Assembly (NCBI GenBank): GCA_017506865.1
Contig: JAFCMP010000279.1
Span: forward strand, 310,001-374,000
Length of the DNA: 64,000 bases
From: Tribonema minus
Taxonomy: Eukaryota; Sar; Xanthophyceae; Tribonematales; Tribonemataceae
Direction of reading: 5' to 3'
Shown: in pieces, positions 3,255-61,400 of the stretch
Position numbering within the stretch: position 1 is the stretch's first letter
Layout of the letters: each line of letters begins with the position of its first letter
Position numbers and translations under genes: made by a program
Notes under the pieces: generated by a model
The model's database searches: none
Told to the model about the DNA's origin: nothing
The model's input: the letters and a program-made list of their open reading frames with translations, nothing else

Positions 3255-5444
3255 ATGAGCTGCCTTCGCATCCTGTCTGCTCAAGACCTGTTCACTGGCT
3301 GCTTCCGCTGCCTGACAGATTTGCAGCATGGTAAGTACGTGTTCATCAGCTTTCCGAATGCGGATTTGAACAAGCGAGCGGGAGACTTCGCCACCATGTT
3401 GTCCGAGCGCATGGAGGAAATGAACATCCCCCACTTCTTTGATGAGCGCGACCTGAAGCCGGGGGGAAGTGCTTGCTGATCGCGTGGGAACTGCGCTGTG
3501 TTCCTGTCTATCCTGTCACCCGACTACTTCTTGCGCGCCTGGTGCATGAAAGAGCTGGACTGGGCAGCCCAGAGCCAGCGCACGATCGCCTTCTTGCCAG
3601 TTTACTTCGGCACTGACCCGTACCCAAGTGATGAGCAGAAATCAGCCTGGAGAGCCGCTTGGCAGGGCATGATCAACGCAGGTGCGGTGACAGCAGAGGA
3701 GGTATCCCGCTGGACAACGAATCTGGACTCGCGCCTCGTTCACCAAGGCGCTGTCCTCGCCAACTACCCCGGGGTGTTTGGGCTACGGAAGCTGCGGGAT
3801 GCAATACTGAAGCTGCCATGCATAGACTCCCTTCGCAGACTATCGCTGGTAAGTTGGTACCTTCAGCCATGCAGGTATCTGTTGTGATACATGCACAATT
3901 TGCATGCTGTGTAATGATGTCTTTTGAACAACTCACCTCCTGTGCAGGTTGAAGTGAGCTGCCGCTACCAGGATGGTTCACCTCTACCAGGCCATTCAGA
4001 ACTTTTGAGCAGACAAGAGCTGCAGCTGCAATCCACAAATGAAGCTGTCCAAGTACTGGTCATACATGGCGCAGGTGAGAGCAAGTGAAAAGTCTGAGAG
4101 CTGTGCAGGTTGCGTCGGCATGCATCTATTATCACATCCTCACACCATAGCCCCATCTGCTCTGCACAACGCTGCACAGGTGGCATGGGGAAAAGCGCAT
4201 TGGCAAGAGCTCTTTTCAACAAGCTGCTGGAGCGTTTCAGCGCGCACCAGACTGCTGCCCATGTGCAATCGGATGTGGACACCGCCGCCGCCGCCCTCCG
4301 TACACACCTGCTCAAGTGTCTGCGCCTCTGGAATGCCAAAGACACTGCCGATGATGAGCGCGACCGTGTCAGACAGTGGTTGACGCAGGGCCAAGCCAAG
4401 CTTCTGGTCGACAACCTCTGGACACGGCAGCAGCTTTCAGACCTGTTAGTGGAGCGGCTCGTGGCTGGCAGTGTCGTTGTGATCACCACCCGCAACAGGG
4501 GCGTGACGCAAGGACTTTCAGCCCAGCATGATGCGCAAGTCCGCCTCTTTGCCATGCCAGGGCTGGGGGAAAAGAATGCCGTGTCACTGTTCCGGCGTTG
4601 TCTGAAGGCCACAGAACCACCGTTTCCGGTGAGTCCATTGCAATATTGCACCTGCCACTGAAGATTTGCACAATGCTGACCACGATTGCACAATTCTGGT
4701 CAAAACAAATTTGCTTTCACCCCCAGATGCGATCCTCACGCACGTTGCTTACATGTGTGGTCTGTGCAATGTTTCGTTAGGACTTGGAGAAAGCCATTGT
4801 GCAGGCATGCTCTGCAAAATCACCGGAGCCAGACGAACTAACGTGCATGCCGCTGGCACTGGAAGTGGCTGGGGCGCTGCTGGGGCAGAAAAACGAGAGA
4901 CAACAATGGGAGGTCAGGATTGTGTGAACGCTTCTGCTGGACATGTCATTGAGTTGCAATGCTCCACAGCGCAGAGATTGGTTACTGATTGAGTTGCTCA
5001 ACACCCGCTTCAGTTGACCATATTGGCGAGTGCTTGCGGTGCAGCCTGCTCAACTGCTCATTTGACTTGTAATACTGCAACACCATCCGATCCTGCTTGC
5101 TTGCCCTTGCGTTGCAGGATGTTCTGGATGATTTGAAGCATGGGCATGTCGACGATGACAGACTAGACAATGTCCTCACTGCATCATTGGACAGCCTTGC
5201 CTCAAATGGCAAGCTGCAGTATCGGAAGTTAATGTTCATTGAAGCCGCAACCACCATGCATGGTTGTAATGCAGACAATGCGTGTATTGTCTGGCAAGAC
5301 CAGCATGCAAGGCATGGCGCAAATGCCGCACGCTGCGGGCTGACTCAGCTCTTGGAGCGTTCCCTCGTGCGAGTGGACAGCAATGGTAATCTGTGGGTGC
5401 ATGACTTCATCAGAGGTCTTGCAGCCGCCATTGCATTTTTGTGA
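3255..5444 (+). CDS. TIR-NB-ARC (plant TNL-like) receptor gene, TIR frame interrupted
   Basis: Exons: TIR about 3255 or 3327-3848, then 3948-4074, 4180-4628, 4781-4912 and 5118-5444. All introns are GT-AG. The TIR part reads KYVFISF, then a BB-loop-like FFDERDLKPGG, then SPDYFLRAWCMKEL, whose Glu in WCxxEL is the catalytic position of TIR NADases. Splicing 4074 to 4180 creates a textbook P-loop, GAGGMGKSALA. Next come a kinase-2-like KLLVDNLW, an RNBS-B-like VVVITTRNR, a GLPL-like CMPLALEVAG, and an MHD-like LWVHDFIRGLA near the end. The last exon stops at 5442-5444 with no leucine-rich repeats, so it is a TN rather than TNL architecture. The TIR exon has an in-frame TGA at 3477-3479 after a run of six Gs. 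The next frame briefly reads a good TIR helix there, so a pair of indels (real or from assembly) is likely. Plant relatives act as pathogen sensors; that role here is inference. Confidence 0.88.
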
Positions 5445-35500: not shown

Positions 35501-38500
35501 TATTGCCAGCGTACACAAAACGCACGTCTCGTTGTTGCGCTGCATCTTCTTGCGGAGGTATGCAAACGTGATTGGCAGCGGACAAAGTCGATCGCGCAAG
35601 CCTGCATCAGCTTGATCAGCAGAAAACACAGTGCCCATATCGTGCCGCGATGATGGAGCACACGCCATTGCCAGCGAACGCACCGCAAGAAGCATGGTTG
35701 TTGTTGCGCTGCAGGTATCCATGCATTCTTTGCATGTTTAAGTACTCCAATGCCCATGCGTCCTCATGTTCTGACGTGCTCATATATATCCATAGGTGGG
35801 TGACTTTGGTGGCGATCAGGGCACTGCAGGGCTGGTGGATACACTCGGGGGTCACAGGCAGGCCCGGATGCAGCATTCTGGAACAGTTTGAAGGATGAAA
35901 TAGTGTAGGACCATGGGTGATGTGCAGCATGCATTGTCTAACACGGTAAGTATGAAGCGTGTTGCTCACCATGAGCAACTCAATTTGCAGTGTTGAGTTC
36001 GCCTTCTGTGAGACCGACACCCAATCTGAAACGCGTGATAAGGAGCACCAGCGTTGACTTGCACTCGACCGTTGTCCTGTGTGCATCTGCAGAAAAAGGA
36101 GGCGAAAAGCATTGATCTGGGTGCACAGACCGCGCAGGTGCGCTCGAAAACAGCCGTCCCTGCAAAAATACTGTAGCATCTTGACACGCTATGCGCATAA
36201 TTCGCCACTATGGAGCGCGACACGATAGGCAACCATCCGTATGTGGGGCTGTTTGCAGGTGTGCGGCACATGCATTGGTCGCTGCGCGCATGCCATATGG
36301 CCTGCACGTCACAGCTGCTAGCCCTCTCTGCTTCGCCATTAGCACAATTCAACACAGCAGTGCACAAGACAATAGGCAACCCCCCGTATGCGGGGCGTGT
36401 ATTGATGCGTAGCGTACGCTTTGATCGCTGCACGCATTGCAGATGGCCCGCATCTCACAGCTGCCTGCTGTGGTCGCGAGGGCCGCTTGCAGCTGCATAC
36501 GTAGCAGGCACTGATGAGGGAAGGTAGCTGTTGAGCACTGTTTATAGGCGCTGCTGCGGCCGCTGGTGACCAGCAGCAACTAGTGTCGCAAAGCTCCACC
36601 GACCGGGGCAGATCTGCTGATCTGATGCTCAAGCTGTCATAACCTCACGGCCTTTGATGTTCACCGCTTTTTCTCTGCGCATGCGGAAGCTGAAGTTGGC
36701 CCATGGCACTGCCGCTGCACTGCGAATGATGAGCATGCCATGCGCCCCATATGGCGTGCGTGAGCTTCTCATTCAGTAGAGATTTGCAGTGCTGTCCCTG
36801 ATGGCACGATACCCACCTTCCGTTGTCGACAATGCACACAAAGTGAAACATGTTTCTGGCCTTTGACGTGCCGTGCTCCATTCGTTTAGGACTACTCGAT
36901 TCAATGATGATGACTGTGGCCTACCTCACTGCGCCGCACTCCATCCAGGACTACTCGATACACCTTGCGCCATGGAACGCGCACACGAAACCACTCTGAC
37001 CGATGATAAATAACTGTGGTTTGCCTCACTGCGCCGGTATTCCTTGCAGGACTACTCGATACCCCTTGTGCCATGAAATGCGCACACAATAATGAAAAGC
37101 GCACACGAAAACACTCTGTTCGATGATAATATTTGTGGCCTGCCTCACTGCGCCGTACTTATTGCAGGACTACTCTATTCGGGTGGAGGATCCCGACAAG
37201 GACGCTACGAACCCCGATGAGTGGCGCGAGTTCTTTCAGCAGTTTGGCCACGTGACGTGAGTGCGTGCTGACACTGCCACCGCCGCTGCTCGATTGCCAT
37301 GCATGCGCCTTCTGCTTGCAAGCTGGCGCCTGGCAGTGTCTGCGCCAATGCGCACATGTCACTTGTACTTCAAGTAAACCTTTTGAAGTACTTCTAAGTA
37401 TATGTGTCGTTTGTGCTGGCTGTGCGTGCGAGCTGGTCGGCGCCGCTGCTCGTGTCCTGGCAGTGCGCACTCAATCGTAACAGTTCAACTTGTGGCCCGT
37501 CACACGCTCCCCTGCGCGCAATGCAGCTTACGCCGTCCGCCCAAGTTACGGGGCATGAGCGTGGCAACTGACATCGACATAGATCGAGCGACACAGACTT
37601 CATGGATATTGCTGTGCAGGCACTGCACCTCACTGACTCTGTGCCCCCCTTCGTGTCTCTGTGCTCATGAGATGTGGTGAATGTGGCGTGCGTGGCACTC
37701 TGCACAGCCATGTGCCCTCCTTCGTGTCTCAATGCTCATGACATATGGTATGGTGTACATGATGGTGTTTATGACACTCTGCGCAGCCATGTGCCCCCCT
37801 TTCGTGTCTCAATGCTCATGAGTTACCGTGCGCATGATGGCGTGTGTGGCACTCTATCTGCGCAGCTATGTGACGGTGGCGCTGGACAATGGGACGCTGC
37901 TGGAGTCCCTGGTCAAGAAGCGCACCATCATGCACAAGCTTGAGGTCAGCGCGCTGTGCCCTCGCAAGTCGACAGCATGCGATGAGCATTGTTCAGTTGT
38001 GAAGTCGCAGTTGCCTTACGATTCACTGAGGTCATAGAGGTTGTCCATACAGTCACCTAGTGATGCATGAGTTTTGAGATCAGCATTGTTGATTTTGAAA
38101 TTGTATACTTCTTGAAGTACGATGCTCCTACGGCAGAAACCCTGCACTCAAAGCGCTTGACAAAAATGACAAAGACGCCAGCTTTTTCAGAAAGCATCCC
38201 TGTCCAGTGTTGCCGTATCTCCTATGTGTGCTTTCATGTTTCGAAAGCGCAGCTTGAGGTGAAATACTTGGAAGTATTGGTGTGTGAAGACAAGCTACTG
38301 CCAAGCTACTGCCAAGAATATGCCTCGTACCTCTGAACTAATATTTCATGCTTCAAACTGCCAGTCTGTCCTTCTGGCGCGGCAACTGCTGTTCAAATAT
38401 CGCAAACTCGCAGTGGATAGATGATCAAGCGTTTCAGATGCTTAGGGCTTGGTTGGTGCTAAGTAGGGTTTGGGGTTGGAGTTTCATGTTGGCATCATTT

Positions 38501-41500
38501 TATGGGTCGTCTTGATTCCGCCAGCAGGGCAGTCGCACTCTTGCTGGCAGCGTAGCATTATAGTCATGTCCTATACCAACCGTCTTGGTGTCGCTTGCAC
38601 CTTGTTGTGATTTGTCGTGTGTTGCAGCTGGAGGTTGGCGGCACTGGCCCTGAGTATGAGAGGGCGGTGGTGAGTTATTATAGGCCTTGCTGCAATTGGT
38701 AAAGCTCCTTGTTACTAAATATATACTTGAAGAATGCAGGAACTTTGGCGAAGCCCAAACTGCACTAGCGAGCCAAGCGCGCAGCAGCAGCGCACCCGAA
38801 CCAGTTACACTATACCTTCCTGCGCCAGTTTCTCCGCACGCACCTGCTGCGTCGCGTGTATTGCTAGTGCATTTCGTTACGTGTTGCTTCTGCATGCTGG
38901 CACGTGTCACGCATGCAGTGCCGTGGCAGCGTGTGCTGCGCTCTTGGCGCTCAGTCGCATGGATGCATGAATTGCGATGTGGCGTTGCTGCGCATGGCAA
39001 ACGTTGCATCAGTGTGTTCAGCAAAGGTGCCGGGTTCGCATGCTTCACAGTAAGGTACTTGTGGTATCACTCTCTGCCACGTGATGTATCCGCATGCACT
39101 GGTAACACCCTCGCATGTTGTCATAATATCAGCAAGCTCACGACCGTGGACATTGCTCTTTTGAAAGGCGCGACAGCTACTCTACCTCAAATATTGCCAA
39201 CTGGCACCCATCACTACTAGGACAGTCGCTTGAGGTGATGCCCAGCCCGACCGTGCAGCTGCCTGCGAAGCACGACACTGCCGTCTCCTTTGATTCAGTG
39301 CTCCGCTGAGTCTCAATTTTTTTAAATGTTTATTTGCGTTATTCTGGCCGCGTGTGCACAGGACGTTGCCAACCCCATGACGCGCGAGGGCAGCAGGCCG
39401 TGCTGGCGGTGGTTCATGAACCTGTTTGGGCTGTGCGGCGACGTGGTCTTCTACCACGAAAAGGTGACGTGCCGCGCATGTTTTCCGCGCGAAACCTAGG
39501 TGACAAAGCCCCTTGTATCTCCATACTGGAGCTCTGCTGCATGATTGCTAGCACTTGCTGCTGGCTGTTGATTGTTGGGTTGCTTCTGTGAGTGCCGGTC
39601 AATGCAAAGTGCGCCGAGAAGCAAGGCGCAAGGGTTACGGGTCAAGCTGACTTACACTCCTATGTATTTCCTTCTGCTGGCAGCCACGTAAGCTGTCCCA
39701 CAGTCCAGTGAATCGTACGTACAAATCTGCTGGAGCGCCGCTGAGAGTTTTTGAAGTCGCAGCTCAGTGAGAGCTAGGGTAAAATAGAGTCTCAGGGCGC
39801 AGCACCAGTGAGCACAGGCACATGAAATCATGCTTGCGCATCACAGACGCCGAGGTGGTTGTAGCATCACGCTCTTTTCAAGTCGCATGCAACCAGCGAG
39901 ACAAGTTTGCAACACTCATTGGCACTGTCACATGTTTTCGCTCTCGGACATCACAGGAGTACACTGCTGGCGCAGGCCTCTGCGATCTGAACGACCGAAC
40001 ACGCTGCATGGTCATTTTTTGCTGTGGCAGCTGCTGCCAGTCTTCATGCAACACGGTGCTTGCAGGGTATGTGCTCGCATTGTTGCTGCGAGGTGTCGAC
40101 GCTGCTCGGTGCACACGGCTGCGACGCCTTCCTTCATCAGTTTCCTGCCATCAGAGATTATGCTGTCGCTGCTGTGCTGGCCCTACATAGGCGACCGATC
40201 TCGCACCACCGCAGAGGACAATTGCTTTTTGGAGCATACGCCCATCATCAGGCGCTCAGTCACCCTGCTACTGCCAGCTTCTTGATATATGCATGCAACA
40301 AACCAGGAGCAGCTGCGGTCACGACATCCCATTGTGCGTAGCCAACGGCAAGTGTTCTACCTTGACGGCATGTGATGTATGCTTTGACGTGTGACAGCTG
40401 CGCAAGACCATGGACAGCATTACGGAACTGGAGCACAAGCACTGCAACGCCGTCAAGGTCTACGTGACCTTTGAGCATGAGAAGGACCAGGTACATGACA
40501 CTTCTCTCTGTCGGTCATCATTGCGACTTTGAAACACTTCTGAGCAGCTGTAGGTGCTGCCCTGGAGCAGCTAACCGCAGTTGACATCAGCACCCTTTTG
40601 CAGCTTCAGTTACATCAAATCTTGAGTGCTGAGTAGGTTGCTATTAGTGCACCTTTTGCGTGGCCTTCATTCTGTGCTGCTTGTGCAGTAAGGCTGCTTG
40701 GGAACTATGGAGACCTTGCAACATGCAACAGTGCTGACAGCCTTTCTAGCTCTTCACACTGCCACGTGCATGTATGAACAATAGCACCTGAGATCAAGTC
40801 TTGGCATTTGGTGGCATGGATCTTGCAGCTAGTCGTTTGGTGACCAGCTGCGCTAATACTTTCAAGTTTCAATGATTACTCCTACAAGCGTAAACAAAAA
40901 GCAGGCCATTATCTAGCGCCCCTCACTGTGCAAGCAGGGACACTTGCTCACGCGCTCCCCCTTGAAACTGACAAGCACAAAGGGGCAGCACCTGTGACTC
41001 CCCTCAGCGTCAGTGACTCGTTGCAACACCTTGACCGGTGTCATTGCATAGGCGTATGTACTGCAGGGCATGCGGACTCAAGCACTGATAACGACATGAT
41101 GACTTTGGCAGTAATATAAATATCCAGCGTCGCTTCCTCCGCCATTGCTGAGCATCCATGCTGACATGCGGTCATTGTGTTTTGTTGCGACACGCGCAGC
41201 GCGAGTGCCTGCAGGCCATGACCACTGGCATCATCGCGGCTACGCAGGAGCGGTCCACCAAGGTACGTACGTGACGCACCCACTTCCTTCAACTTTTTAC
41301 TTCTACTTGAAGTTTATGTTTCTAGTTTTGAACGTACAATGCGCAGTCCAGCGTCCCGGTCGAAACGTGTTGCAGTGTGATTGTTGCGGCGAATGCGCGG
41401 AGCGTGTGGTGATCACCACATGATGTAAGCTGTAGTTGCCCTGTTTGATCACAGCAGGGTAGCATCCCATACTGCATTTCACGGCCACATGGTACCCCCG

Positions 41501-44500
41501 AAGCACCACGCTGGCCATTTGATCTCAGCATGGAATGTAACGGCGCAACCATCTACCGCGACTTTTCCAGCATCAGTCTGGTCAAATCCACTTGGCTGGC
41601 GCAAATGAGCAAGCACCGCAGCATTTTAGATGACTGATTACTCGTGTCCGTGCGTGACAACACACTCTCACAGCATATGTACTCCAGAGACGCGTCTGCT
41701 TATTGGAAGGCCTCGAATATGTCGAATGCAGTGCAGAGACGTTGGAGGCATCACCATGATCCATGCTGGGAGCAGATCTTGAAGTTAACATCATGCTATA
41801 CATTCTGTGTACACGCAATGTGGTTGCTCAGCTTCGATGCGTTCACCTGCTTCGTTGTGATTGCGCTTGCACGATGCCACCGCAGTGCTGCTGATGCTGG
41901 GCTTGCTGTCAGAAGCACGTCTGTCATCATGTCTTCAGACGTGCGCAAGGCGCACGCACGGCGGCAAGTGACACGTCCAAAGCAGGGCTGAGGGCACTGT
42001 CATCATCTGCTGTCAGAGTCAGGCTGCAGTGGCTTTGTGCGGCGAGCTGCAGGTTTTCTGAGAATATTATGCGCATCGTGTTAACTCCTCGTCATCGTCT
42101 GCACTGCCACCATGACTGGTTGCGCGCCTGATGCTTAGGTGAAGCCGGAGCACAGATTTAGGGGGTCCAACGTCCTCAAGATTGAGGAGCCTGCAGAGGT
42201 GCGGTGATGAGCGAATCTCAATGAATCCGATCTCACCATTCGTTTGCACTGCCATTTATTTGCGCACATGCGTCGCGCTTCGAGGGAGCCAGTTTGATTA
42301 GCAAACATTGAAATGCTGTGGAAGGACACCATTCACAGCCCTCAGAGAGTGTTGGCTGTGTACGTTTGAAACAAGTATTTTTGTGAAGTTGTGGAATGCC
42401 TGCTCTCCTTTCTACTGACAGCCGACTATGTGTCTGGCGTAGTCACATCGACTTGTCAGTATCTATGCGGCATGTTATCATCCTATCAGCAGGCGCTCCC
42501 TGCACTATTGTCGACTGGCACATCCTGCACCTGCGCTCACAGTGCTATACAGTATATTTCGACGTGTCTGGCCTTTGTGACTGCATGTGCTTGCTGCTCG
42601 TCTAAATCCCAACTAGTGTGCATTACATCGGCGCACATTAGCTTGTGCTCATAAGCCGATCTGCGTCACCTGCGTCCGCGTGCACAGGCCTCAACCCTAA
42701 CCTTAAACCCTAACCCTACGCCACGGGTGTCGCATCGCAGCGCCCGGAAATGCCAACACACCACGTAATCACATGCTGTACTGGTGCTCGTGCCTACTGG
42801 CGTTCATGTTGTGCTGTGCACAGCCGGCGGAGTTCGTACTGTGCTGCGTCACCTACTTCCGGGTGCACAGGCCCTAACCCTAATTGTATCCTCCTCACCC
42901 TAAGCAAAAACACACTGATCGCAGCGCTGGAAATTGGCAACACACCGCGTAATTAACTGCGGTCTTGTGCGTGCTGTATCGGTGTTTGTATCGTGTGCTG
43001 CGCGCAACTCTGATTGCCAGCCCTAATGCTAACCTTAAAGCCATGAGTGTTGCATCGCAGCGCTGGAAACATCAGCACACCGCGTGATAAACTGCAGTTT
43101 GTGCGTGCTGTATCGGTGTTTTGTATCGTGTGCTGCGCGCAGCCTGCGGAGGTGAACTGGCTGACGCAGGACAGCACTTTCTTCTACCGCCTCATTGAGC
43201 AAGGCGTCACGCTGGCCATCACGGCCGGCATCATTGCGGTTCTGGCAGCGCTCATCTATCTGGTGAGTCATATGCTTACGCGGTACCTCACAATAAGTCA
43301 AGTACTTACGTGGTACATCCATCTGGTAAGTCGTGTACTTGCGCGGTACCTCAAAATGTTTTTGAAGTACTTCAAAGTACTCAAGAAGTATGCACGTTTT
43401 TTTGGCAAAGTACTGCGATGTATACACCGTTGTGTTGGTTCGGCTGGTGCTCATTCACCTGGTGCATCATGTGAATAGCATCGTTGCAGATCTGGCAGTG
43501 CTCATTTTTCTGGTCAAGGGCTGGCGTGGGGGTGCACTCCACTGCCAGCTTGCCACAGCCCTGCAGGGGAAAGAGCGCTTTGACAACACTGCACGACCTT
43601 GCCGTGACCTCTACGCAGGCGGTGTTTATGCATAGAGTCCTACATACTGTTTCAAGCATGTTGTTCCTGCTCTTGACGGCAGTTGTCAGAGCTTCGATTG
43701 GTCCTGCATCGTCTTGATTCAACCTGCACTGCCTTGTCAGCAATGCCATGAATAATTCAGTTGAAAATTGCGTTGACTTCTGTCCATGAACCCCATGTAG
43801 ACTTGGGGTCCTGGGGCGACGACCACATGTTGGCGCTGTGAAATGTGCATGTATGCAGTCAAGTCAAGCAAGCAGTGCAGTCAAATTATAGTTTATAGTC
43901 AGCATCATTGCTCGTTTCTAAAACTTGTTGTTGCTGTAGTCCAGTACCTACTCAATAGACGTTCTTCACACCATTGGCCTTTTCTGGGAGTGCTATTCTG
44001 ATACCACTGTGGCCTGCATCTGTCCAGTTCTGGTTCATGATCGTAAAGATAGTTGCATTATGCTGTACTTGTCTGGTTCCTGACCTTGAGGGCTTTCCCA
44101 TGATAACGCATTGTACATATGAGGACGAACTGCAGTTTTGATCTCAGTGGCGTTTTCATCTTCAATTATGGCGTCCCTGCTACTGCTCTGTTGCTGCTGG
44201 CATGCATCAAAACCTAACAGCGCATTTTGGCGGCCCATAGCCAGCGCACGCATCTCTGTCAACATTGACATCAAATGGCGAACTTCTACATTGAAGTACG
44301 TTCGTTGGGTTCACCGCTGCCGCTCCGTTACCGCGCGTGCAGACGTCCAAAGCAGACAATGCGCTGGCGGCCATCTTCATCTCCGTTGTCAACAAGGTCC
44401 TCCCCATCCTCATCAAGGTGCGCAAGTGGCACGCGCCAAGAACTGCCTGCAAAACTTCCATCGCCAGACACGTGCTCGTAGCTGCTGTGACGCTGGGTGA

Positions 44501-47500: not shown

Positions 47501-50500
47501 TATGGGTAGAATCTGGTGCTAACACATCACTAGGCAGCAAATGTGCAACCACAGGTATGCCTATGTTCACACAGGCTCAAGTTGCGGTTGACCTGCACCT
47601 GCAGTTGGAACTGTGCGAGGCTGGTGGTCAGCCTTAAGCTCGATGCACACAAATCTGGGACAATGATACGACCGGATCGGATTGGCGCTGCTGCTGCGAG
47701 GTTGCAGTTTGTGCTTAATGGACGTCAACATTTGCGACGCGTTGCTGCATGCGCAGGCAGCTGCATGGGTGCAGTGAAACCAGTCTACTGCTGGCAGCAT
47801 TGGAGCCAATGCACAAGCACACGGCACGCTCATGTGGAATCACCAACACTGCTAATAAGTACGCAAGTGCTGCCGGCCAGCGCCTGCGCAGCCCCTTGTT
47901 CACACTGTGTGTGCTGCCTGAACTGTACACGTTATCGGGTGCTGCCGAGCGCTGCAACGCTACGCCGCCATGCTGCCGCCTGCGCAGCTTCCTACTCTCG
48001 CCGTGTGCTGCTTTAACTGTACACGTCATTGATGAGTGTTGCGCTCTGTTGTGTGCTGTCGAGCGCTGCTGCAGCGCTATGCCGCCATGCTGCCGCCTGC
48101 GCAGCTTCCTACTCACTTGTGCGTGCTGTCTCAATTATAAACACTATTGATGAGCGTTGCGCTCTGTTGTGTGCTGCCGAGCGCTGCTGCAGCGCTACGC
48201 CTCCATGCTCAAGACGGCATTTGTGGCCCTCTTTTTCAGCGCGCTCTTCCCCGCGGGCTACTTCATTGCCGCGCTGGCGCTCTTTGTCACGTACTGGTAC
48301 GTAGGTATTGCGCAATGTCCTGATACCCCCGCTCCTGTCCTGGCCTCAGCTATGCTACCCTAGAGGACAAGTCTTAGCAGAGTCATGGATGAAAACGGTA
48401 GTTGAGAGGTTCTGCAATCAACAAGATGGCGGGTCAAAGGCTTGATAGCCTCACCTGAAATATTATGGTTTGACCAACTGCCGCAGCAGCGGCGACCACG
48501 GTTATTGGTGGAAGGCATGTGCGGCCTACCACACCTTGCCACCTAGAGCTCCACGGTCTTTCGATCTGTTTCCATAGTACCGTCAGTTAAGTACGATCAT
48601 TCAGAAATGTATGTAGGGTCCCTGATACCCTGAGGAGGCGCTCACACGCGACAAGGAGCATTCGAGCATACTGGTGCGTGAGCTTGTGACCCATTGCTCA
48701 GATTGTGCTGCATGCAGTGTCCTGTGCTGTGGGTGGCCGAGCAGTGTCGCTTCAAGCATGGCACTTGGCAGTCAAAGTATGCGCTGGCGACTGTCACTGC
48801 GTTGACGGGCTTTGCTCCGCGTCGCCGTGTGAACGTTGGCGAGCCTGCCGGTCATTACTGGTTGAAGTTATCATCCACGCTCAGCTGCAACGTTTTTGTG
48901 ACATCCGCGCCTCTGATACACGATCAGACTCATGAAGTTTCATTCTTCTTGCTCCATCATTTGACGCCTGCTGTGACGGCTTGTAAATGTCAAGCCGCCG
49001 TGCTTGTAGCCGCACACATGTGCTGCGTGTATCGTATGGGCTGACGTGCGTCACTGCAACTGTGTCTGCGTTTCACGCTCGCAGGGTGAACAAGTACTGC
49101 CTGCTGCGGTTATGGGCCACTCCCCCCCCCATGGGCGCATTCCTGGCACAGGTACAGTAAGCGCCCATGAGAACGCCGGTTTTGCCGCAGTGGGTGACTC
49201 TGGGGGCTCCTGCTACTCATTTGGTCTGCCAACAAATCTGGCGTGTGCCTGCTGTTATTTCCTGGCCAGTCACCTGGCAAGACTGTCCCAAGCGCCTGCA
49301 GTAGGTGCTTGTATGGTCTCATGTGGCAAGCTGCACTTCGCTGTTGATTCTTGCTCTCTGCTAGCGCGTGAAAAAGCTCACACCGCCGTACTTCCGAATA
49401 CCTGCGCGCGTAGGCGCAGAGGCCACTGGTTGTGCTTGCCGACCGCCCAGTCAACGGTGTCCTCTTTGTATTGTCAAATGGTCCGCGTCCCCTGAAGCAC
49501 GCCCTTTTTGATTGGTTGCATGTTATTGCCTGTGTGTGCAGCTGTCGCGCAGCTACCTGGCACTGGCAGTGCTCGTCAAGCTGCTCGTCACTCTCAACTT
49601 CTACGCAAGTGAGTCAAACCGCAGGCATGCCTTGAAGTATTTATTTTCTTCTTGAGCTACTGAGCAATATGTGCACCATCGTCTGCTGCAGTAGAATGTA
49701 ATCACGCTTGCGCTTTCTTGCGGCGCTCATCTGCTAGGTGCCTCTCATCAGGATCCGTCTGCACAATTTGTTGATAATTCAGGCACATACATCACTGCGA
49801 CGTGCATGTTGAAGGTTACAGTGGTGCGCAGTCATCACGCTCTACGAACCTACATGCGGTACACATTGTACCCGCGCTCAAGCGTGAAACGAATACGCAG
49901 CCTGTGTATCTGCATTCTGCACTCGCGCTATCACGTGCAATGAATACGCAGCCTGTGACATGCAGGCGCCATTTTGGTGCTCGTTTCAGGTGCGGTCGCT
50001 ACGCTGAGGCCTCACACATTGCAAGCGCGACTGTGCATCTGCCCTGGCTGCCCTCCCCCCCCAATCTTCAACTACAACTTGAAGTGGCTGACGCCCGGCG
50101 CAAATTACCACCGCCCTGCAACCAAGCACCACGAGCACACGCGCTACATGCGCCACGCGCAAGCCACTCACGACTCACCCCCATGACTCATGACCCATGT
50201 ACCCCCTGCTGCGCGGTATGCGCAGACTGGCCCTTCGACAACGAGCTGTGCAAAACAGGAGAGACGGTGACGCAGGTGTCGCCGGAGGTGGCAGCGCTCG
50301 GCATTGCGCCCGGCGCGACCGTGTACGGGTACTGCGCCACCGACGTCAGTGGGTCGCCGTGGTACATCTTCACGGAGCCGTGGATGAACGACGACCAGAA
50401 GACCCTGGTACGTGGTGACTTTTTAAATTAGAGTTGCATAACAAATCAAGAAACAACGCGTTGCTTCGTTAGTTGTTAGATATTCGTAATACAACAAATA

Positions 50501-53472
50501 ACTAACGACACCTCTGATGGCGATTCGTTGTTTTCGCATTTCTTTCAAATGCCCCCCTTCAGCTCGTTGTCGAGCTTGTCCAGCGGTGTAAACAACCAGG
50601 CCTGCACGCATTATGTTGCGCTGATGTGCCAGCAAGAGCAGCACCAGCACTGCAGCACATCTCCATCAACAAACCCAGATTTGTTTGCCAGCCTCGCACG
50701 CACTGCAGATAGCCGCGCACAAAGGCAGTCGCCGAGAGCTTGCTTCATGCTGGTTGGCAGCAACACACGTCCAAGCCGTCATGGCATTGATCTTCAGACT
50801 TCCGACCACCGGCTTTGTAGCAATTGCTTTCAGAGACCACAAAGGAGACCTTCAACAGTTGTGGAACCTCAGGTAGGGTTGTTTTTGAAGGGGGGAGGGG
50901 TTTGAAACCGTGATCCGCACACTGGTGCTTTGAGAAACGCCGTGCTATGATTTTACAGGCTATACAACTGCCGAAGACAAGATAAGTACAGCCATAATAC
51001 ATGGAAGTCTGACAGAAAGCAGGAGCTCTATCACACTTGACCCATTCTTAGGGTGGCGGTGAGTGAGATTTGCTAGTGAAACCATCAATGTTAATCAGTA
51101 ACGCTAAAATAACGAATATTTATAAAATTACGAAAACCCAACGAATACCTAACGAATGGATGGTTCAGCAGTCATAACAAACAACCAACTATTGTAATAG
51201 TTGCGCAACTCTATTTCTGATTAAATCAAGACAATAATTACTGCAAGAATCAACATTTCAACAGATGGCCTTTGGTATTTCAATTTAAAAGATATAGTCC
51301 AAACCCATGATTTTCATTTTGTCAAGGGGAAATCTTTGCGCTGCTTGGCAGCTGGTTGTGTGTCTGTGGCATCAGTGGTGGTCGGCGCTGGAACATTTGA
51401 AGTGCAGCAATGCTGTGTGATAGCGCTGCAATGCTGCCGCGTGTTTCAGGCAGTGGGCAACTGGCTTTGTAGCGTTCGCCGAGCAGTGCAATGAGGCCTT
51501 TCATGTGGCCCACACCTCGTGATGAGCGTGGGCCTCCTGTGCGTGTGCGTGAGGCACACACCTCGTGATGAGCGTGGCATTGTGAACTCAAGCTGAAGCT
51601 CAAAATCGTCCAATTGTGCTACACATGCCGCATCACGAGCCCACAACACTACCAACTACTGCATCAAAGCAAGTAAAACGACACAGCATCACACCTCTGC
51701 TGCCACCTGACAGTAACCGTTGTCGTGTCTTTGCTCCACTTTCAAACTTCACTTTCCAACTTCAAAAATGCAGGTGCACCTGTACTCCATCACCGCCATC
51801 GTCGCGACAGTCCTGGTGGCCATCTTCTGCTTCGGCGGCCCGTTCTGCTACTTTGTCTACCGCCTCTACTGGGGCGCATACAAGCCGGTGGGCCGCGCAA
51901 AGGGCGTCCCCTACAGCAGAGTTGAAGAGATTCAGGCGTTCGTGCCGCAAGTGAAGTTCAAGCTGCTGCCGCACCCTCTCCTTGCCACGGTGAGCCACCT
52001 CTGTATAGGCGTAATACCTGAAGTTATTCACGCTACGTGAGTGCGCTGGGCAAACGGTTTGCTGCCTCACTTGCCTTGTATACTTGTTTGAAGCGCATGA
52101 GGGCGTTCCCAGCGTTTGCAGGTAGTTTTCACGGGTGTTCCTACATACCAATTGAGGGTGGTTTTCACTGCCCACCTCAGCAGCGTAGCAAGGTTGTTCT
52201 GCATTGTGCTGCGATGTCATGTCAACTGCTTCCTGTTATGACTAGGTGAGGGCACCCGCTTGCTGACGAGCACGCCAGTCATAGTCGTATCTGCTTACAC
52301 TCACTCTATGCATTACAGGAGTCCACACATGACTTGACGTGAAGTCACAGTGAGCCGTTGTACTAATGACGTGCGCGCTAAAGGGCTTCCTGATGTGCCA
52401 TTGCCGTGCCTGCGTGAAAGTCTGCTTTAACACGCCTGCTTATAATGATGCATGCATTGTGGATGTCTTGACCCTGAATTTTTGCCTGATGCCCATACGC
52501 ATTAACGTCTCCCACACCCTGCTGTGAAGGACATGTGGCACTGTGCAGCGGTGCTACCTGTTGCGCCATTGAAGTGACCCGTGAGCTGCTGCCTGCCTGA
52601 GCTGATGCACACATTGCACGCATGTTGCTGCCGTACTGAATGTCGCACTGACCGTGTTGAGTATGTCTGTCGCATCTTGCCGTGAAGGACATATCGCGGC
52701 TCGACACGCATCACATCGCGTTCCAAGTTCAAGACGATGACTACCAGAAGTTCAACCTCTGCTCGGTGAGATGAGCAGCAGGCCCCTCTTCACTACTGTA
52801 GCCCTCATTCTGAGTTTTTGATTACGTCACGGATCGCCTGAGTATGTGCACTCTTTGGGCTTCAGCGCTGGGTCTTCTGCTTTAATCAGCGCAAACAGAA
52901 CAGGCACTACTGTTTTTGATAGTACTTTGGCCCGATATGGGGCAGCAGACCGGTGTCAGCCAAGCCAATGCGCCGGTAAACCCGTTCAGGCCGGGGACCC
53001 ACCTGACGCTCCATTGACAGCGTGAAAAACGCGCAGACACGCCCTCTCGGCGGCAGCAATGGCAAAAGAAGCTGCACTCGCGCTCTTGCCATTTAGGAAC
53101 AGGCCACTGTGTCCATCGAAACCCCTTTCACTTCGTTGCCAACAAACAGTTGCTTACAATCTGACACGCGTGCATGGCATGTCAACATGTGGTGCTTCTA
53201 CTTGAAATGCCAAGCAGTTGCTTACAATGTGTGATGAAAAGCGGGCATGGCACATCAACATGTGCTTCTGCTTGAAGTATGCATACTTCGAAGTCAGTGC
53301 ATTGATGCGTGCTTCTTGCTCCAAATGAATGCATCGCCTCTCTCAGGAAGCGGACATGCCCACCATTCCCGAAGAAGAGCGCTCCAACTTCTTCAGCAGG
53401 TGCATCAACTACCCCCCCGCGCATGGACGCAAGAGCGCACAGGCAGACACGCACGCCGGCGCTTCCGCTTAA
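29576..53472 (+). CDS. OSCA/TMEM63/CSC1-like mechanosensitive cation channel (very large gene)
   Basis: Multi-pass channel of the RSN1_7TM (DUF221) family. Exons placed in phase: tentative 5' exon ending 29755; 31511-31570, 32237-32284, 33020-33081, 33911-33983, 34616-34705, 35295-35360, 36093-36137, 37168-37256, 37866-37944, 38628-38669, 39362-39463, 40398-40490, 41200-41262, 42139-42198, 43152-43262 (or from 43143), 44343-44417, 45017-45178, a weak exon ending 45835, 46556-46608, 47290-47371, 48193-48296, 49085-49151, 49542-49608, 50226-50407, 51774-51989, 52688-52765 and 53347-53472. Landmarks: FGLGIGLYF near the first membrane span; DYFTIPFLFLFGVV; the RRM-like cytosolic domain (DYSIRVEDP, EFFQQFGHV, KVYVTFEHEKD); EPAEVNWLTQ; FVALFFSALFPAGYFIAALA with TYWVNKYCLLRLW. 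About 800 residues, the family's usual size. One membrane exon between 45178 and 46556 is uncertain. Plant relatives open on membrane tension or hyperosmotic stress. Confidence 0.9.
30480..31030. repeat. Degenerate GACGG/CGTCG-rich minisatellite
   Basis: Repeated motifs such as gtgtcgtgcagac, gacggagt and gcgacgg recur irregularly over about 550 bases, in the first large intron of the channel gene. Confidence 0.65.
35460..35715. repeat. Short tandem copies in a channel-gene intron
   Basis: acacaaaacgcacgt followed by tgttgcgctg occurs twice in direct succession (35470 and 35515). A third, more diverged version lies near 35660-35710. Confidence 0.65.
36215..36430. repeat. Diverged tandem duplication in a channel-gene intron
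   Basis: ataggcaaccatccgtatg and ataggcaaccccccgtatg lie about 145 bp apart with similar following sequence (gctgcgcgcatgcc and gctgcacgcattgc). Confidence 0.6.
36888..37180 (+). repeat. Four tandem copies of a 3' splice junction
   Basis: aggactactc(g/t)at occurs at 36888, 36947, 37048 and 37166, each but the first preceded by cctcactgcgccg. The last copy is the acceptor plus first codons (DYSI) of the exon at 37168. The earlier ones are intronic replicas. Units are about 59, 101 and 118 bp. Confidence 0.88.
37620..37880 (+). repeat. Three or more tandem copies of a 3' splice junction
   Basis: The sequence cag-c(c/t)atgtg, preceded by ggcactct(g)-type sequence and followed by ccccccttcgtgtctcaatgctcatg, recurs about every 80 bp. 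The copies start near 37705, 37784 and 37863. The last is the real acceptor and start of the exon at 37866. Confidence 0.85.
42660..43155 (+). repeat. Tandem array with telomere-type tracts before an exon
   Basis: Three diverged units of about 180 bp carry ccctaaccctaa-type tracts (42693-42719, 42871-42884, weaker at 43021), then tcgcagcgc(c/t)gg(a)aa, then caacacaccacgtaat-like sequence, then a cag-c(c)gcggag junction. The last unit ends in the real acceptor of the exon at 43143/43152. Confidence 0.85.
47880..48215 (+). repeat. Three tandem copies of a 3' splice junction
   Basis: gtgctg(c/t)cgagcgctgc, then a variable few bases, then cgcta(c/t)gcc(g/t)ccatgct, recurs near 47940, 48055 and 48172 with a spacing of 113-118 bp. 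The third is the acceptor and start (RYASML) of the exon at 48193. All copies keep the exonic portion. Confidence 0.92.
50431..51211. mobile_element. MITE-like DNA transposon with terminal inverted repeats
   Basis: The left end gagttgcataac and the reverse complement of the right end, gagttgcgcaac, form inverted repeats. Each end is flanked by TA (50429-50430 and 51212-51213), consistent with a TA target duplication. The element is 781 bp, AT-richer near its ends, with no transposase ORF. It sits in a channel-gene intron between the exons ending 50407 and starting 51774. Superfamily (Tc1/mariner-like or other) is undecided. Confidence 0.72.
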
Positions 53473-55471
53473 CCGGGCGCTGCACGGCTGTAGATGCAGT
53501 CGCTGGAGCTGACTGCCGCAGCAGCTGTGCCCGATGCTGCAGTGGCGGCTGCACTGGTGGCAGCGACGGTGCCTTCACGGCAAGGAACGCCGCTGTCGCA
53601 ACGGCTACCACTCTGGCGGCAATGCAGCCACTCCTGCTGCAGGCATGCAATGGGTTCCCCACTGAAGCACTGCTGATCCACGGGGACTGGCGCTGAGGGT
53701 GCATTGAATCGTGCCGCAGCATTGTTGTCGGCTTGCGGCACTGCGTAGTTTACTCTTTTTGAAGGCTTGTCCGTCGCTAGCGATGTCTCACTCCTTTTGC
53801 AGCCCCCACCTTCCACTAGAAACAGCACCCTCCTCCAAGTGGTTGTTGTGTACTCACATGCGCTGGTGCAGGCTGCAGATTGGCAGCATGCATGTCAACA
53901 TTGATCCCGCGGCATGGTTTTATCAATGCTCCCAGTTCCAACTGTAGGCTATGAAGAGAGTGGTTGACGTGTGAACAAGGCCTGCCTTGTCTGTAGGATT
54001 ACAATGTGGTGGTGCACCGTCGCCAGCAGGCTGTGGTGTGAACTTTTATGCCTTTTGCACATCAGATGTGATCGAACTCGAGCCAGAGTTGCCCTGCCAA
54101 TCTCTCTTTCTGCCGTCTGCACTCATGTCCATTCCTCTCGCATATGTGTTCACATTATTTTGCTGCGTGCACAACTGGGTGGGGAACCATATCGGTGCAC
54201 GCTTCAGTTGCTGCATGCTGTCGTTGCTGCCACCCTACTGTGTACAGCCGTAGGGCACGCCGCCCACAAGTTCAAATCAGCATTCCCGCCGCCATGTGAA
54301 CTGCTGTAGTGCACAGCCCACTGACACCGACCCCCCGCTAACCAGGAGCTGATCAGTCAACATCCCCGCTGTTGCACTTCAAGCGAAAACGCCAGGCGAT
54401 CATAGCTGCAATGCCATCAATTGTGTCAGCATGAGAGAGGCACGCAGAAGCCATGCCGGTCTGCAAGATGAATGCCAATAATGTGCACGCCGCATAGACG
54501 GGCGCATGCAGCATGTAGACCTCGACAAACAGTGTAGCACGGCACGTGTGACTCTCAAATATTTTGGCCAGCGCCATCAATATGAAGTGTGCATGTGAAG
54601 CTTCATGCCGGTGTTTGTGGCTTAAGGGCAGCCTCGCCTGGTGACATATATTTATTCAGATGCTGCTCTCAACAATGCTGGTACTTCAATGCCATCGGCG
54701 CATTTTGTGAGTTGCCGCTTCTGTTCGCCGCGTGCAGGCAGCGACGCCGCGGTTGCAGACCTGTTCATGCAGGTGCTGTGACATCGCTTACTCTGCAGCC
54801 GGCATGAAGGTGAGATAGTAAGCTCGCGACATTCCGACACCATGGTCTGTGTGTGTTGACAACTACCACACTTGCCACACAAATAGCCGTCACTGCCCGT
54901 GCCACAGTGCGGCAGGCGCCAGCGGAAGCTTCACAAGGAGACAGCTGCAACGCTCATTGCATGCAGCTGCAAGGCGCGGTGCTTGCGCGATGTGTCCCGC
55001 TTTTCCAGTATAGCTCAGCACCTCCCCTGCGGTGACCCATCGATCACTTGATCCATGCCAGGTCGTATTGCTCGCTGACGCGTGTGTGTCTGAGGCTGGC
55101 GCGCCCTGTGGCGTCTCACGTCAGTGCTCAGTGGTGTGGCTTGATCATCCAGGTCATCACCTGCGCTCAAGCGCCCTCGGCCCACTTTGTGCGCTACGGC
55201 TTGGTGCTCTGCGCCGCGCAGTGGTGCGACAGCACAGATAGCCAGTGACCTATACGCTGGTAGACCAGCAGCTGCTATGAGCGCCTACCCCGCTTACAAT
55301 TGTGCCCGTTGCCACGTAAAAAGCGACATTGGCAATTGGTGCATCAGCGCCTTCTCGCTGAAGGGCCAAGCCATACCATGAAGGGCCAAGCCCTACCATG
55401 AAATTGGCACAAGGCAGCCCACACGGGATACTTGACACCTCCAGTGACTAGGGCAGGGCCCTTGCATGGTT
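53473..55471. other. Intergenic between convergent genes
   Basis: Two kilobases separate the stop of the channel gene and the stop of the dolichol kinase gene. No splice-bounded exon or repeat of note is seen. If the terminal channel exon were instead spliced at 53400, a further exon near 53998 would be possible, but its phase does not fit well. Confidence 0.5.
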
Positions 55472-58400
55472 TCATGTGACCAAGGCCATGGCACAAAACG
55501 CGAAGAGGGGCAACACCAGGTTATCAACCTGCACACCACAGCAGCAGAGCAGACAAGCAGAGGCACTTGTGTGAACAGCTGTCAGTGATTACAAACGGAC
55601 AAACTCGCATCTCAGTGCATGCGTCTTTGTCTGCGGCCAATTTGCTACTTGAAGCACAAATGGCGTGCCACCAGCTGCATGAAGGCAGCAGCTTCCTGGT
55701 GCTGCACACGTTGAAGCACATGTGGTGACGCTGGCTAAACCACTGCGCTGAAACGCTTGTGCACATTTGGCAGGGTAGCATTCCGCTACATACTGACCCA
55801 GGGGTGCCACAATACCAGATTATGCCAGAATACCACAATCATTACCACCATGATCACGAAAGGCAGTGCATGCCAAGGTCGGGGTGGTGTTCAAGCTCCT
55901 CATGGCATCCGCATACTCATACTCATACTCATGAACTCTAGCAGCACCCCAACCTGGTCTGTTCAACCAGTGGCAGCAGCACATGTAGAGCGCTCAGTCT
56001 GGAGTGACATCAGCATGTTACCTGGCGGCATGAAAGTGCAGCTGCTGTAAGATGGCGCACATCAAGGCCCCTCAGGCAACAACGCTCAGCAAGCGGGGCC
56101 TGATCAAATACAGGCAACGTCACAAGGCTCGGGCCGAATATGCCAGTAGCAGCAGCACTTCTGTAGGGCGCTGACCTGTGTGGTCCACGCTTCCATCAGC
56201 GTGATGAGCACTGAGGCAGCCAGATATTTGAGCACTGCTGGTGGTGCACCTGTGGCAGCAACAGCGCGCCGGGCATGCGAGGATCAGAGACTGGGTCACA
56301 GCAGAGTTTAAAGTGGATGAACCTCCGCAAGAATGCATGCAATTACATGAGTGCGATAGCATGGCAGATGGTTTTGCAGCCGAGGTGCAGCCGTATTCTG
56401 CTCGACGGCAGCGGTACTTGTGTGTCGTTGAATCCGTTGCAAGAAGCGGGGGCGCTTTGAAACGGGACTTCTCCGCAATACTACTAGCAACCATCAATGC
56501 CAGCGGATGCGGCAGAATTTCACATTTTGGGCTGGCGGCATCGTCAGCATGAACATCCTGATGTCAGGCCTGCATGCAGAAAAAACTCACCATCAACACC
56601 ACGTTACATGTATGATTACTCACCATCAGCGCCTGCAGGGCCGAGCCAGCTTGCCGCCGCCATTAGCGACGCGAACGTCGCCACCAGCATGGCCGCAGAC
56701 CCCTCTAGCGTGTGCTGCGAGCCTGGCCACTTGTGCCGCCCAACGGCGCTGCCGACGAGCGCCGCAGCTGCAACACATACATACATGCATACCATAGAGA
56801 GAGACGAGTGTGCAAGGCGTGTTGGTCCTGTAACACACAGCTTGACCACCTGAATTTTTAGACAGAGCGGCTTTTTGGGATATTATGCCAGGTGAAGTAT
56901 CAAAGATAATCAACGCCTAGCTACAATCAAATATCCACAAATCTTTGGAATATAATAGAACACGTGTGCAAGGCGTTTTGGTCCTGTCATCAGACAGCGC
57001 TCTTGAGTGAGTGAGTGAATGAGTGGTCACCGCTAGTCGCGACAACATGTATGACGACATGTGGAGGTTCTACGCGACGTCTGCTTGGCCACATGGGCAA
57101 GCGCAAGTGATTCATTGTCTGCCGCTGCTTTGCACAACTACTGGGAGCCGCATGAGCGCGCCTGGCTCACATCCTGCCTCCGGAGCTGAATCTTCCATAA
57201 CTGAGTGTCCAAGAAAAACCAGGAGATGCCATCCAGGTCATTTCAAATGATCTACTTGTGTCCGCCATGATGGTCTGTCAGCCAATGACCAGTGATGCGA
57301 CACGCGCTTTGCCATTCCAAGAGCACAGCAAATACGGATTGAAAAAAGTGCGCGGTAGGTTGGCTCGCCGTCTGCTTGTCGTCATTTCAGATTACAACAC
57401 TCACATGGAACAGAGTGATACTTCAAGTACACATCTAGCTGTAGACAACTTGCTCCATGATTGACGCACACACACACACACAACAGTCAAGTGCGCGCAT
57501 GACTCACCTGCGTCCCCCACCCCCAGCGCGATGAGCCCGCACAGCTGCGGCAGCGCCCAGCCGCAGCTGCGGCTCAGGCCACCCCCTTGCTCCACTGCTT
57601 CGTCCGCAGCAGCAGCAGCGGCGGCAGCGTCGGACGCGCACAGCAGCAGCGGCAGGCACACGCCGGCTACCAGGTACAGCGGCGTCAGGACCAGCAGGCC
57701 TTGATCGCTGCGGCGCGGGCGCACACGGCGCGCAGACGTTAAAGTTGGCAGGGGTGAGCGGTTGAGGGAGGGCAGGTGCACTGCTTCTGATACTGTGGCG
57801 TGACTTCCGTTTGCCTTGTCCACAGGCCTTAATCGCTGCGGCGCGGGCGCACATTGCGCACAAATAGGGCGAGGGTGAGTGGTCGAGGGGGGGGGGGGGG
57901 GGGGGGGCTGCTGCGCTGCCTGCGCTTCTGATGCTGTCGCGCGGATGGAGGCGTGACTTGAGGTGGGCTTGTCCACTTGAAGGTGGAGGTATTTGGCGCA
58001 GCAAAACTTGCCTTGCCACGCATAGGTGACTGATGAAGTGAAACATGATGAGATACACAGCCCGTGGCTTCAAGGGGAATGTGTGTGCATCCAGTTGATA
58101 GATTCGCAGCATGTAGACATTCATCTCCTTCTACAAAACTGCATGTTCTGGAAATTGGGACATGCGTACAACAGATGCACAGCACTCATTGCAGTGTGTC
58201 TCCTTCTGAACCTCAGATAGGCCTGTAATGTACACATACATACGCTCTGACTGCCCTGCTGAAGAATGTACCGAGTAGCACTGTACGCGATACATTTATA
58301 TACACTGCATACCAACTAGCGCTCTCACCTCTCCGCCAGGGGCACGCACCGTAGCAGCGCTGCAACGGGACATATACATAACGCATACATAAATAGCTCT

Positions 58401-61400
58401 CACCGCCCTCCAGGGCACGTGCCGTAGCCAGTGCAAGGGGGTATATACGTACTGCATACCTCTGACGTGCATACGCGCGCTCTCACCGCCCTGCCAAGAA
58501 CATACACACATATGCTATCACTGCGCCCCCAAGAGAATGTACAAGGAGCTCATCATCGGTCTTTTCCAGCAGCAGCGCCCCAAAAGGCCCCTCCGCTGCC
58601 TCCACTTGCTGAGCTACCTCGGCCACGAGCTGCACTGCTGGCAGCGGGAGCACGGGCCCTGCACTAGAACTCCATGGAAGGGGTATGTATGTACAGCATA
58701 CATACATACTTCTACACGCGCTCTCACTGCTCCGCCAAGAACGCGCCGCAGTAGCGCGGCAGCAGCACTGTAAGGGGGTATGTGCATACTGCATATCTCT
58801 GCAGTGCATACATGCATACATTTACCGCTCTCACCGCTCCGCCAGGAACGTGCCGTAGTACCCATGCAGCGCGCGCGCCAGCGGCGGCAGCCGCATCACG
58901 CGCACCGCCTCGACCGCCACCATCAACGCAGTCGCGACAGCACCGGCAAGGGCTGTGAAAGCAGCGCTCAGCATCAGGCCCGGCACCACAATGGCCACCA
59001 GCAGCAGGTGGAAGAGCTTTCTCGAGACAGTTCTGCGGAAGCGGTAGAGCGCTGCGAGTGCCGGAATCGACGGCAGCCCGAGGAGCAGAGCTGCGAGCCA
59101 GCAGGTGATGAGTAGGGGGTTGGGGGGTGCGCGCGCCTGCGCACGCGAAAGCGGCGGGGTGTTGGGAGAACAACGGGAGAGTGTGAGCGGGGGGCTAGGA
59201 TGTACTGCAGTGAGCAGCGGGGGCTGACCGCGTGAGTGCGGGCAGTTGGACTTAGTAAAATTAAGTACACGGAGAGGGTTGCGGACGCGTGCATTGCGCA
59301 GCGAGCTGCGGGCGTGTGACAGTGGCCACAGTGCGTTGGTGTGCACATGGCACCACGCCTTACGGCCAGGTAAACAGACAGAGCGCGTGTGTGACTTGCG
59401 CACCGTACAAGCGAACGAGGCACATTACACAGGCGTTGTTGACACAAATGCTGCCAAGGGTGGGCTGGCCGGTGTCAGCACATGGTAGCAGTGTACCAAT
59501 ATCATCATCATCAAGCCTTAGTGACTGATGCAGGCAGCCAGCCTTGTCATGCCGCGAAAAACAATGAGTGTGCCACACCTTATCATGCCAGTGCAATCTG
59601 CTTTGAAGTTGAGCGAAACGCAACAAAATGTGTTTTTTACAGAGTGCCTCACTGCCTGCATCTTTGTGACCAAGCACATGAAGACGGTCAACCGTCCGGT
59701 TGTGCACACACTCCATGAAGTGTGGGGTAACTAAGCAACTGGTGCCTGCAAAGGTTCCATTCTAGCACCCCAAAGCAGTTCAGTCCCCCTGGACACAACG
59801 ATGTGGCACGCTTAATGCTGTAGATCTGAACAATTGTCAGCAGGGTGCGGAAGCGGCACGCCAACATGACATAGTCTAGTGTGACAGCCCTTGATTAGCG
59901 CTAGTGCCTGTTTCGGACACCAGAGGTCATACCTCACCAATCACGTACCAGAACTACACACATCAATTTAACACAAGCCCCTTTTGAGCGCGATTTGACG
60001 CGCTTTTGTGCTTGCCTGAGACACTACCGAAACCATTGGCATCAAGCCCAGTTTAAGCGCAATACGACGTGTTTTCACGCTTGCCTGAGACAATACCCAG
60101 ACCAGCGGGTTTGCACCACCGAGCAGCGGCGGCAGCCACAGGCACAGGACGGTACTGATGCACGCTGCACACACTGCCCACGCACGCACCACCCCTGCTG
60201 TCCCCTCCGTTCTGACGGCTGCATCAGGGGGGGGGGGGGGGGGTACAGGCACGGGCAAAGGCATGATCAGCAGACGCGTTGCTGCCTCACTGCGCGCAGG
60301 GGCGGTTACACGAACACATCAAGGTGAGCAGAGGCCTGAATGCACTGCGGAATCAATGCTTGTGGCGCTGCAAAATAAGAAGGAGGGACAGGGGGTCATG
60401 AGCGTTTGTTCGGTGCCGTGACGTCCGGCAGGCACTCGTTCGTAACCCTAACCCTAACCCTAACCCTAAGGCATTCGTTCTGCATGTTCAACAATCCTAC
60501 AGCCGCGGCCTGCACCTCACGACGGTGGCAAGGGCTACAGCATCAACGTGCGATCAGCGCACGCTTCGAAGGCAAACTGTGGCGTCACAACCTCAACTTT
60601 GTTGTGGTGGGGAAAAGGGTGCGTTTTGCTCAGCACAATATGTCTGGCAACGCGGCAGTGCGCACCACAACAGAGCAGCGAGCGCGATAAGGACCGTCTA
60701 GTGACTGCGGTTTGTGCATAGCACAAGTGCACCGCACTGTACAAGTACGCAGGTATTGCGCCATGCAGCGCGGCGCGAAATGAGCAGCCTCACGAAAGTG
60801 CATACCTCATGAGGCACACACCCCTGTGGTGTGCTGGGATGGCTGTGATACAGGTGCATGGAGGCATGGCACGTCACCTGCAAGTGTCACTGATCAGCAA
60901 CTCTGTTGAAGTTTCAGGGTGGTGTTGACACAGACACACCTGCCATTGCACAGGCTGTGAGCAGCACCCCTAGCACTCCTGCCTGTGCCACCATCCCCAC
61001 TTCCGAGCGCTCGTGCGGCAGCGGCGCAATCGCGTACGGCCCCAAAGTGGCAGTCGGTGACCACGTGACTGCTCCCCGTGCAGTCCCCTGAAATTGCATG
61101 ATGCAAGACGCAGGCATGATGCATGAGGAGGCACCGTATGCAACGTCAGTTACGTCTGTTACAAACAACATCCAGTGCCAACGTCATGGTATGGCAGAAG
61201 GCATGATAATTACATCAGTCACATCAGTTGCAAGGGTCAGCAGCACCTTAATGTCATGATGCCAGAACTGTCGGTTCATCAGTGGAGGAGATGGCCATCT
61301 GCTGAGCACCGTTGAGCACGGCCTTCGAAAAGTTTGTGGCCAGGCTAGATATGGGGCCAAGTAGCGGTACGGTCGCGTTTTGGAGCAAACGCTCTGGGAA

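Follow-up and report, generated by a model that had tools for sequence, protein, structure and literature searches.

In this study, we revisited a 64,000 nt stretch of the genome of the alga Tribonema minus (assembly GCA_017506865.1, contig JAFCMP010000279.1, positions 310,001 to 374,000 of the forward strand; the whole stretch is referred to as the window), in which splice junctions of two neighbouring genes are accompanied, on the intron side, by copies of the exon edge and its splice site. We propose, with a probability of about 0.7, that local tandem duplication recurs in this genome with a preference for exon edges, and that it makes introns longer in a neutral fashion and leaves dead look-alike splice sites behind. 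According to this model, duplications would arise along genes, with a frequency across exon edges about double that predicted by uniform placement. Where a junction lies within the duplicated unit, the outer copy would stay joined to the exon and continue to work, and the inner copy or copies would land in the intron. The inner copy would be spliced out with the intron, leaving the protein unchanged, and the event would be tolerated. From then on the inner copy would be neutral: mutations would accumulate without restraint in its exon part, its splice dinucleotide would erode, and the intron would have gained one unit in length. Through further rounds, arrays containing two to six copies would build up at both donors and acceptors.

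The initial annotation of the window had selected seven junctions, both donors and acceptors, as being repeated on the intron side together with exon and splice-site bases. We sought intron-side copies of these junctions by self-alignment of the window and by a search of each junction against its own intron, in which inner copies were accepted at E ≤ 0.01. One to four inner copies were found at all seven junctions, each of which has at least one copy holding exon bases (7–37), and the coordinates given earlier proved accurate to about 3 bases. In a chance control, in which 100-bp queries were compared with unrelated 700-bp stretches of the window, 8 of 366 trials gave a match. It had also been remarked that the outermost copy is in every case the real exon; this order is forced by geometry, as no copy but the outer one continues into the remainder of the exon. 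At six of the seven junctions the exon part comprises only 7–20 bases, and the window alone is therefore weak evidence that exon sequence is included in the duplications. Stronger evidence comes from a sample of the genome, in which the exon part of the arrays that cross a junction has a median length of 52 bases.

For this sample, the genome (158 Mb in 554 contigs) was searched and genes outside the window were picked by protein family, namely kinesins and myosins. Splice junctions were placed with a home-made spliced profile aligner, which yielded gene models made without RNA. We used 34 of 46 kinesin clusters for junctions, leaving out two single-exon clusters and ten others, and nine myosin loci from a longer list; locus L012 contributed its last intron only because it overlaps with L023. 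Gene-model exons of less than 15 nt were merged into the intron, and introns were left out if they were shorter than 100 bp or if no end was placed with confidence (flank score ≤6 bits). The pooled set thus consists of 178 introns, each 100 bp or longer and confident at one end or both, searched together with up to 150 bp of flanking exon. Diverged local duplications were present in 83 of these introns, with 107 arrays altogether and an array period of 89–218 bp (10th–90th percentile). They straddle 72 of 276 confident junctions (37/138 donors and 35/138 acceptors); exon-edge duplication is hence not confined to the window but extends to about a quarter of the sampled junctions elsewhere in the same genome. 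Of the arrays, 85 cross a junction (donor, 39; acceptor, 39; both, 7) and 22 cross neither. The 78 arrays at one end of a pre-existing intron amount to a lengthening of that intron. Not one of the 107 arrays lies wholly within the flanking exon (up to 150 bp searched), and exon-internal duplications, which would alter the protein, are presumably purged by selection. In the kinesin set, match identities span 68–100% (quartiles 76–87%), which indicates that the process is recurrent. The idea of a recurrent process in which each event lengthens an intron therefore holds, and the process is also seen outside the window, in kinesin and myosin genes.

The arrays were read from assembled sequence, and the copies might in principle have been created during assembly. 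However, copies made by misassembly are near-identical, whereas most of those seen here diverge by anything from several percent to 30 percent and contain frame-shifting indels, and arrays at the same donors are shared by a paralogue. An assembly artefact is therefore extremely unlikely. The paralogues in question are two myosin genes (L055 and L062), which share arrays at two donors. At the first, L055 has two inner copies and L062 has one; at the second there are four inner copies in each gene, with different spacing. The exons of this pair differ by 0.126 at third positions and two of their introns are only 0.61 and 0.72 identical, that is, intron letters decay faster. The longer of the paralogous introns (L055, 1464–3356) contains what by eye appears to be an inverted-repeat insertion, which is absent from L062.

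Fast intron decay bears directly on how the copies were made. The intron letters beside the copies show an identity of 0.52, compared with 0.43 for unrelated introns and 0.89 for the exon parts. Such values would be expected if an exon edge with its splice site had been pasted into the intron as a short templated insertion, without the adjoining intron, and the acceptor at 2097 of L042 and the donor at 2632 of L033 are examples that look this way. When calibrated on true paralogous introns (exon identity about 0.915), the flank score has a median of 32, with 82% above the control cut-off. Copies with an exon identity of 0.90–0.95 score barely worse than this (median 27, 17/25 above the cut-off), and fast intron decay is enough for most of the unrelated-looking flanks. 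It does not fully explain the closest copies (exon identity at least 0.95), whose flanks, with a median of 28 and 15/20 above the cut-off, score lower than young flanks copied along with the exon should. Several arrays are, on the other hand, arranged head-to-tail, as at the donor at 686 of L063, where the distance and the match are both 181. Taken together, these data make templated insertion an improbable account of the arrays, and the idea that exon edges alone were copied separately was largely withdrawn after the calibration with paralogous introns.

As the duplicated units are long relative to the introns, uniform placement alone will make many arrays cross a junction; in addition, exon-derived letters decay more slowly than intron letters and old crossing arrays thus stay visible for longer. 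It could therefore be argued that the arrays are intronic minisatellites placed at random, and that their preference for junctions reflects the better detection of a slowly decaying exon part. This was addressed with simulations that allow several events per intron, use decay rates calibrated on the one paralogue pair and include the slower decay of exon letters. With the simulated decay bias, the fraction of crossing arrays rises from about 0.36 to no more than 0.57; with the bias included, 0.44–0.57 of arrays are expected to cross, while the observed fraction is 0.79. When exons were masked and arrays were found from intron letters alone, 55/77 (0.71) still reached an exon, compared with 0.32–0.35 in the simulations, with 19.2 arrays expected by formula and with a maximum of 34 in 50,000 draws. 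Among masked arrays that are at least 88% identical, 20/23 cross (simulated fraction 0.41–0.43). The last 20 exon bases have a coverage of 0.255, compared with 0.13–0.16 in a uniform simulation matched for interior coverage, and a simulation with a fourfold preference for crossing units overshoots the observed edge-to-interior ratio. Even the 22 arrays that cross neither junction lie close to exons, with a median gap of 42.5 bp instead of the 115 bp under uniform placement, and 18 of them are within 100 bp of an exon (9.9 expected). According to the decay model, and for the two gene families sampled, exon edges are thus favoured roughly twofold.

Several observations nevertheless weigh against a preference for exon edges. 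No clear excess is seen when masked array ends are counted up to 12 bp from a junction (donors 9, with 7.7 expected; acceptors 14, with 9.5 expected); up to 25 bp, the counts are 14 at donors and 17 at acceptors, with 8.0 and 10.1 expected. This end-position test, however, works only where the alignment is clean as far as the junction, and rapid intron decay often precludes this. Kinesin arrays that are at least 90% identical cross acceptors in 2 cases for 3.2 expected, and donors in 6 for 2.4 expected; where the intron part is at least 93% identical, 2/4 arrays cross. Coverage was flat across the junction in an early count on kinesin genes, and the masked base coverage does not rise toward the exon (0.083 at 0–25 bp, 0.20 at 300–400 bp), though in uniform simulations it drops more steeply than observed. 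The arrays also reach less far into exons than simulated, with a coverage of 0.050 compared with 0.066–0.072 at 60–100 bases. Finally, the decay model was calibrated on one pair of paralogues, the gene models are home-made and built without RNA, and two protein families were covered. On balance, we consider random placement unlikely: the claim that the arrays are more than random minisatellites stands, since straddling exceeds uniform placement also when slow exon decay is allowed for and when detection relies on intron letters, and a test of whether arrays are placed at random relative to splice sites, run on the kinesin and myosin sample, did not refute it, with no clear excess in one masked end-position test. 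As a pure detection bias the junction excess was rejected, as masking of exons and simulation made it smaller but did not abolish it.

The excess at exon edges would then stem from the mutational process. It is possible that it arises from breakage tied to transcription or splicing. The higher GC content of exons (0.632, compared with 0.542–0.575 in introns) may also play a part. A duplication mechanism that is itself tied to exon edges would make junctions mutational hotspots; it could, for example, involve breakage or template switching in connection with transcription or with co-transcriptional splicing. We put this forward tentatively, as an idea that is at present more doubtful than probable. 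If it were true, the introns of this lineage would expand outward from the ends and hold dead exon edges as a record that can be dated.

The state of the inner copies was assessed on 119 copies with at least 18 exon bases, located at 75 kinesin and myosin junctions. At the first, second and third codon positions, they diverge from the living exon by 0.084, 0.082 and 0.168, respectively. The equal rates at the first two positions indicate that inner copies are free of coding constraint, and constraint on them was accordingly rejected; the doubled divergence at the third position fits synonymous drift of the exon itself plus free drift of the copy. In apparent disagreement with this, differences between inner copies are also highest at the third position (0.125, 0.165 and 0.227), which we put down to copies that date from different times in the drift of the exon. 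Among 36 indels in inner copies, 33 are frame-shifting. The splice dinucleotides are frequently kept (GT in 45/60 inner donor copies, AG in 47/59 inner acceptor copies), and 29/60 inner donor copies have the form AG/GT (the slash marks the splice junction), that is, the form of a zero-length exon or recursive splice site. This might suggest that the copies are functional and retained for alternative splicing, either as alternative donors and acceptors or as recursive splice sites. However, dinucleotide retention is at or slightly under the 0.84 that drift alone should leave at 8.3% per site, a value obtained arithmetically from the divergence. In addition, 40/119 decoys are in frame, which is the one-third expected by chance, and only four of these are also free of stops. 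We therefore regard retention for splicing as very improbable, and judged by their sequence the inner copies look like dead relics rather than recruited splice sites. The proposal that decoy sites are laid down holds in so far as look-alike sites are present, but not in the sense of useful ones, and the further suggestion that they recruit alternative splicing finds no support here.

Minisatellites or variable number tandem repeats (VNTRs) in introns form diverged head-to-tail arrays that change in copy number. The arrays of the alga resemble them in their head-to-tail units of about 60–220 bp and varying copy number, but differ in that minisatellite placement is blind to junctions, whereas here edges are crossed about twice as often as expected, exon bases are included, and one masked end-position test lacks a clear excess. 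In tandem exon duplication, exon material is likewise repeated next to an exon; here, by contrast, only the exon edge and one splice site are repeated, no usable exons result, and neither coding constraint nor an open frame is kept. Tandem genomic duplication is a recognised route of intron gain (PMC3443670), in which short gene segments are duplicated and tolerated because splicing removes the extra copy, as would be the case here. There, however, an exonic AGGT segment is doubled and a new intron results, while in the alga it is existing introns that become longer, and we make no claim of a new one. In the potato RdRp gene PGSC0003DMG402000361, as described in PMC4974935, a duplication across an intron–exon boundary (the 3' end of an intron and the start of the next exon) made a new intron; the same paper describes ATP2A1 as a case of intron gain by tandem duplication. 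The potato gene is one instance, whereas here about a quarter of the sampled junctions are affected, donors are included and arrays are multi-copy. Introners likewise represent intron evolution on a large scale in protists (PMC9860276). Their sequences are dispersed over many loci; a search of the whole genome with one array of the alga (window 47939–48209), in which common words were skipped, matched only that array itself and showed no dispersed family. In the passages seen of a paper on an intron-rich alga (PMC12730881), such exon-edge copies are not mentioned, and we recognised no account of systematic exon-edge duplication in the open-licence literature, as judged by titles and the openings of abstracts. 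The initial annotation knew of no named class. This is correct only in part, since tandem genomic duplication has a name as a route of intron gain and one boundary-crossing case, that of potato, has been described; the scale and edge bias seen here look new.

To our knowledge, the lengthening of introns without transposons is poorly documented. An exon-derived tag within an intron can be compared with its living parent, and intron growth thus becomes datable event by event and its rate measurable. Should the rate found in the sample apply to the whole genome, many natural cases would be available for testing how well splicing tolerates decoy sites close by. The inner donor copies of the AG/GT form would allow recursive splicing to be tested with RNA. 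For annotators, it is of practical relevance that homology-based gene finding picks up exon-edge relics as additional partial matches, as was seen here.

Table. Exon-edge arrays at the seven splice junctions of the window (window positions; exon bases are those held by inner copies)
Feature	Position	Strand	Junction base	Inner copies	Identity	Exon bases	Remarks
Acceptor array, 'channel' gene	36894..37178	+	first exon base 37168	3	83–93%	11–13	copies about 118, 219 and 278 bp upstream
Acceptor array	37640..37872	+	first exon base 37866	2	78–80%	7	period about 75–79
Acceptor array	42661..43151	+	first exon base 43143	2 (from -174 and from -333)	97% and 87%	0 and 9	telomere-like CCCTAA stretch at upstream end
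Acceptor array	47939..48209	+	first exon base 48193	2	87–93%	17	period about 118
Acceptor array, 'dolichol kinase' gene	57695..57893	-	first exon base 57707	1	90%	13	two copies in all
Donor array	58300..58872	-	last exon base 58835	4	76–88%	15–37	largest of the seven
GC donor array	59974..60104	-	last exon base 60085	1	77%	20	two copies in all

In the array at donor 58835, the exon end followed by GTGAGAG is present five times in total, and the array was detected only in part by TRF (58321–58459). Donor 60085 reads ag/GCAAGC (window 60084), and its GC is kept in the real site and the copy alike. The names 'channel' and 'dolichol kinase', which had been given to the two genes, were not confirmed: a Pfam search of hand-joined open frames gave only a sub-threshold anoctamin match for the former (10.5 bits, cut-off 28) and no match for the latter, and a PDB search of both genes gave no match up to E=5.

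Self-alignment of the window revealed further local duplications at 53143–53276 and 61684–61839. Telomere-like CCCTAA/TTAGGG stretches, some of them degenerate, are located at 42687–42720 and 60443–60469 of the window and in introns of L033, L036 and L042, and such stretches within introns also adjoin exon-edge copies; they may be marks of repaired breaks. The genome encodes many light-harvesting proteins of the chlorophyll a/c type known from red plastids; the phycoerythrin alpha family was not found, though the same search also gave no signal in any control. Matches to a light-harvesting gene have identical scores on two contigs (G000 C70:84559-85430 and C489:5435-6306). The pair represents either recent duplicates or uncollapsed haplotypes, and would be useful for dating arrays. 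Lastly, an open frame at 4098–4661 (+) of the window (GMGKSALARALF...) resembles an NB-ARC type ATPase.

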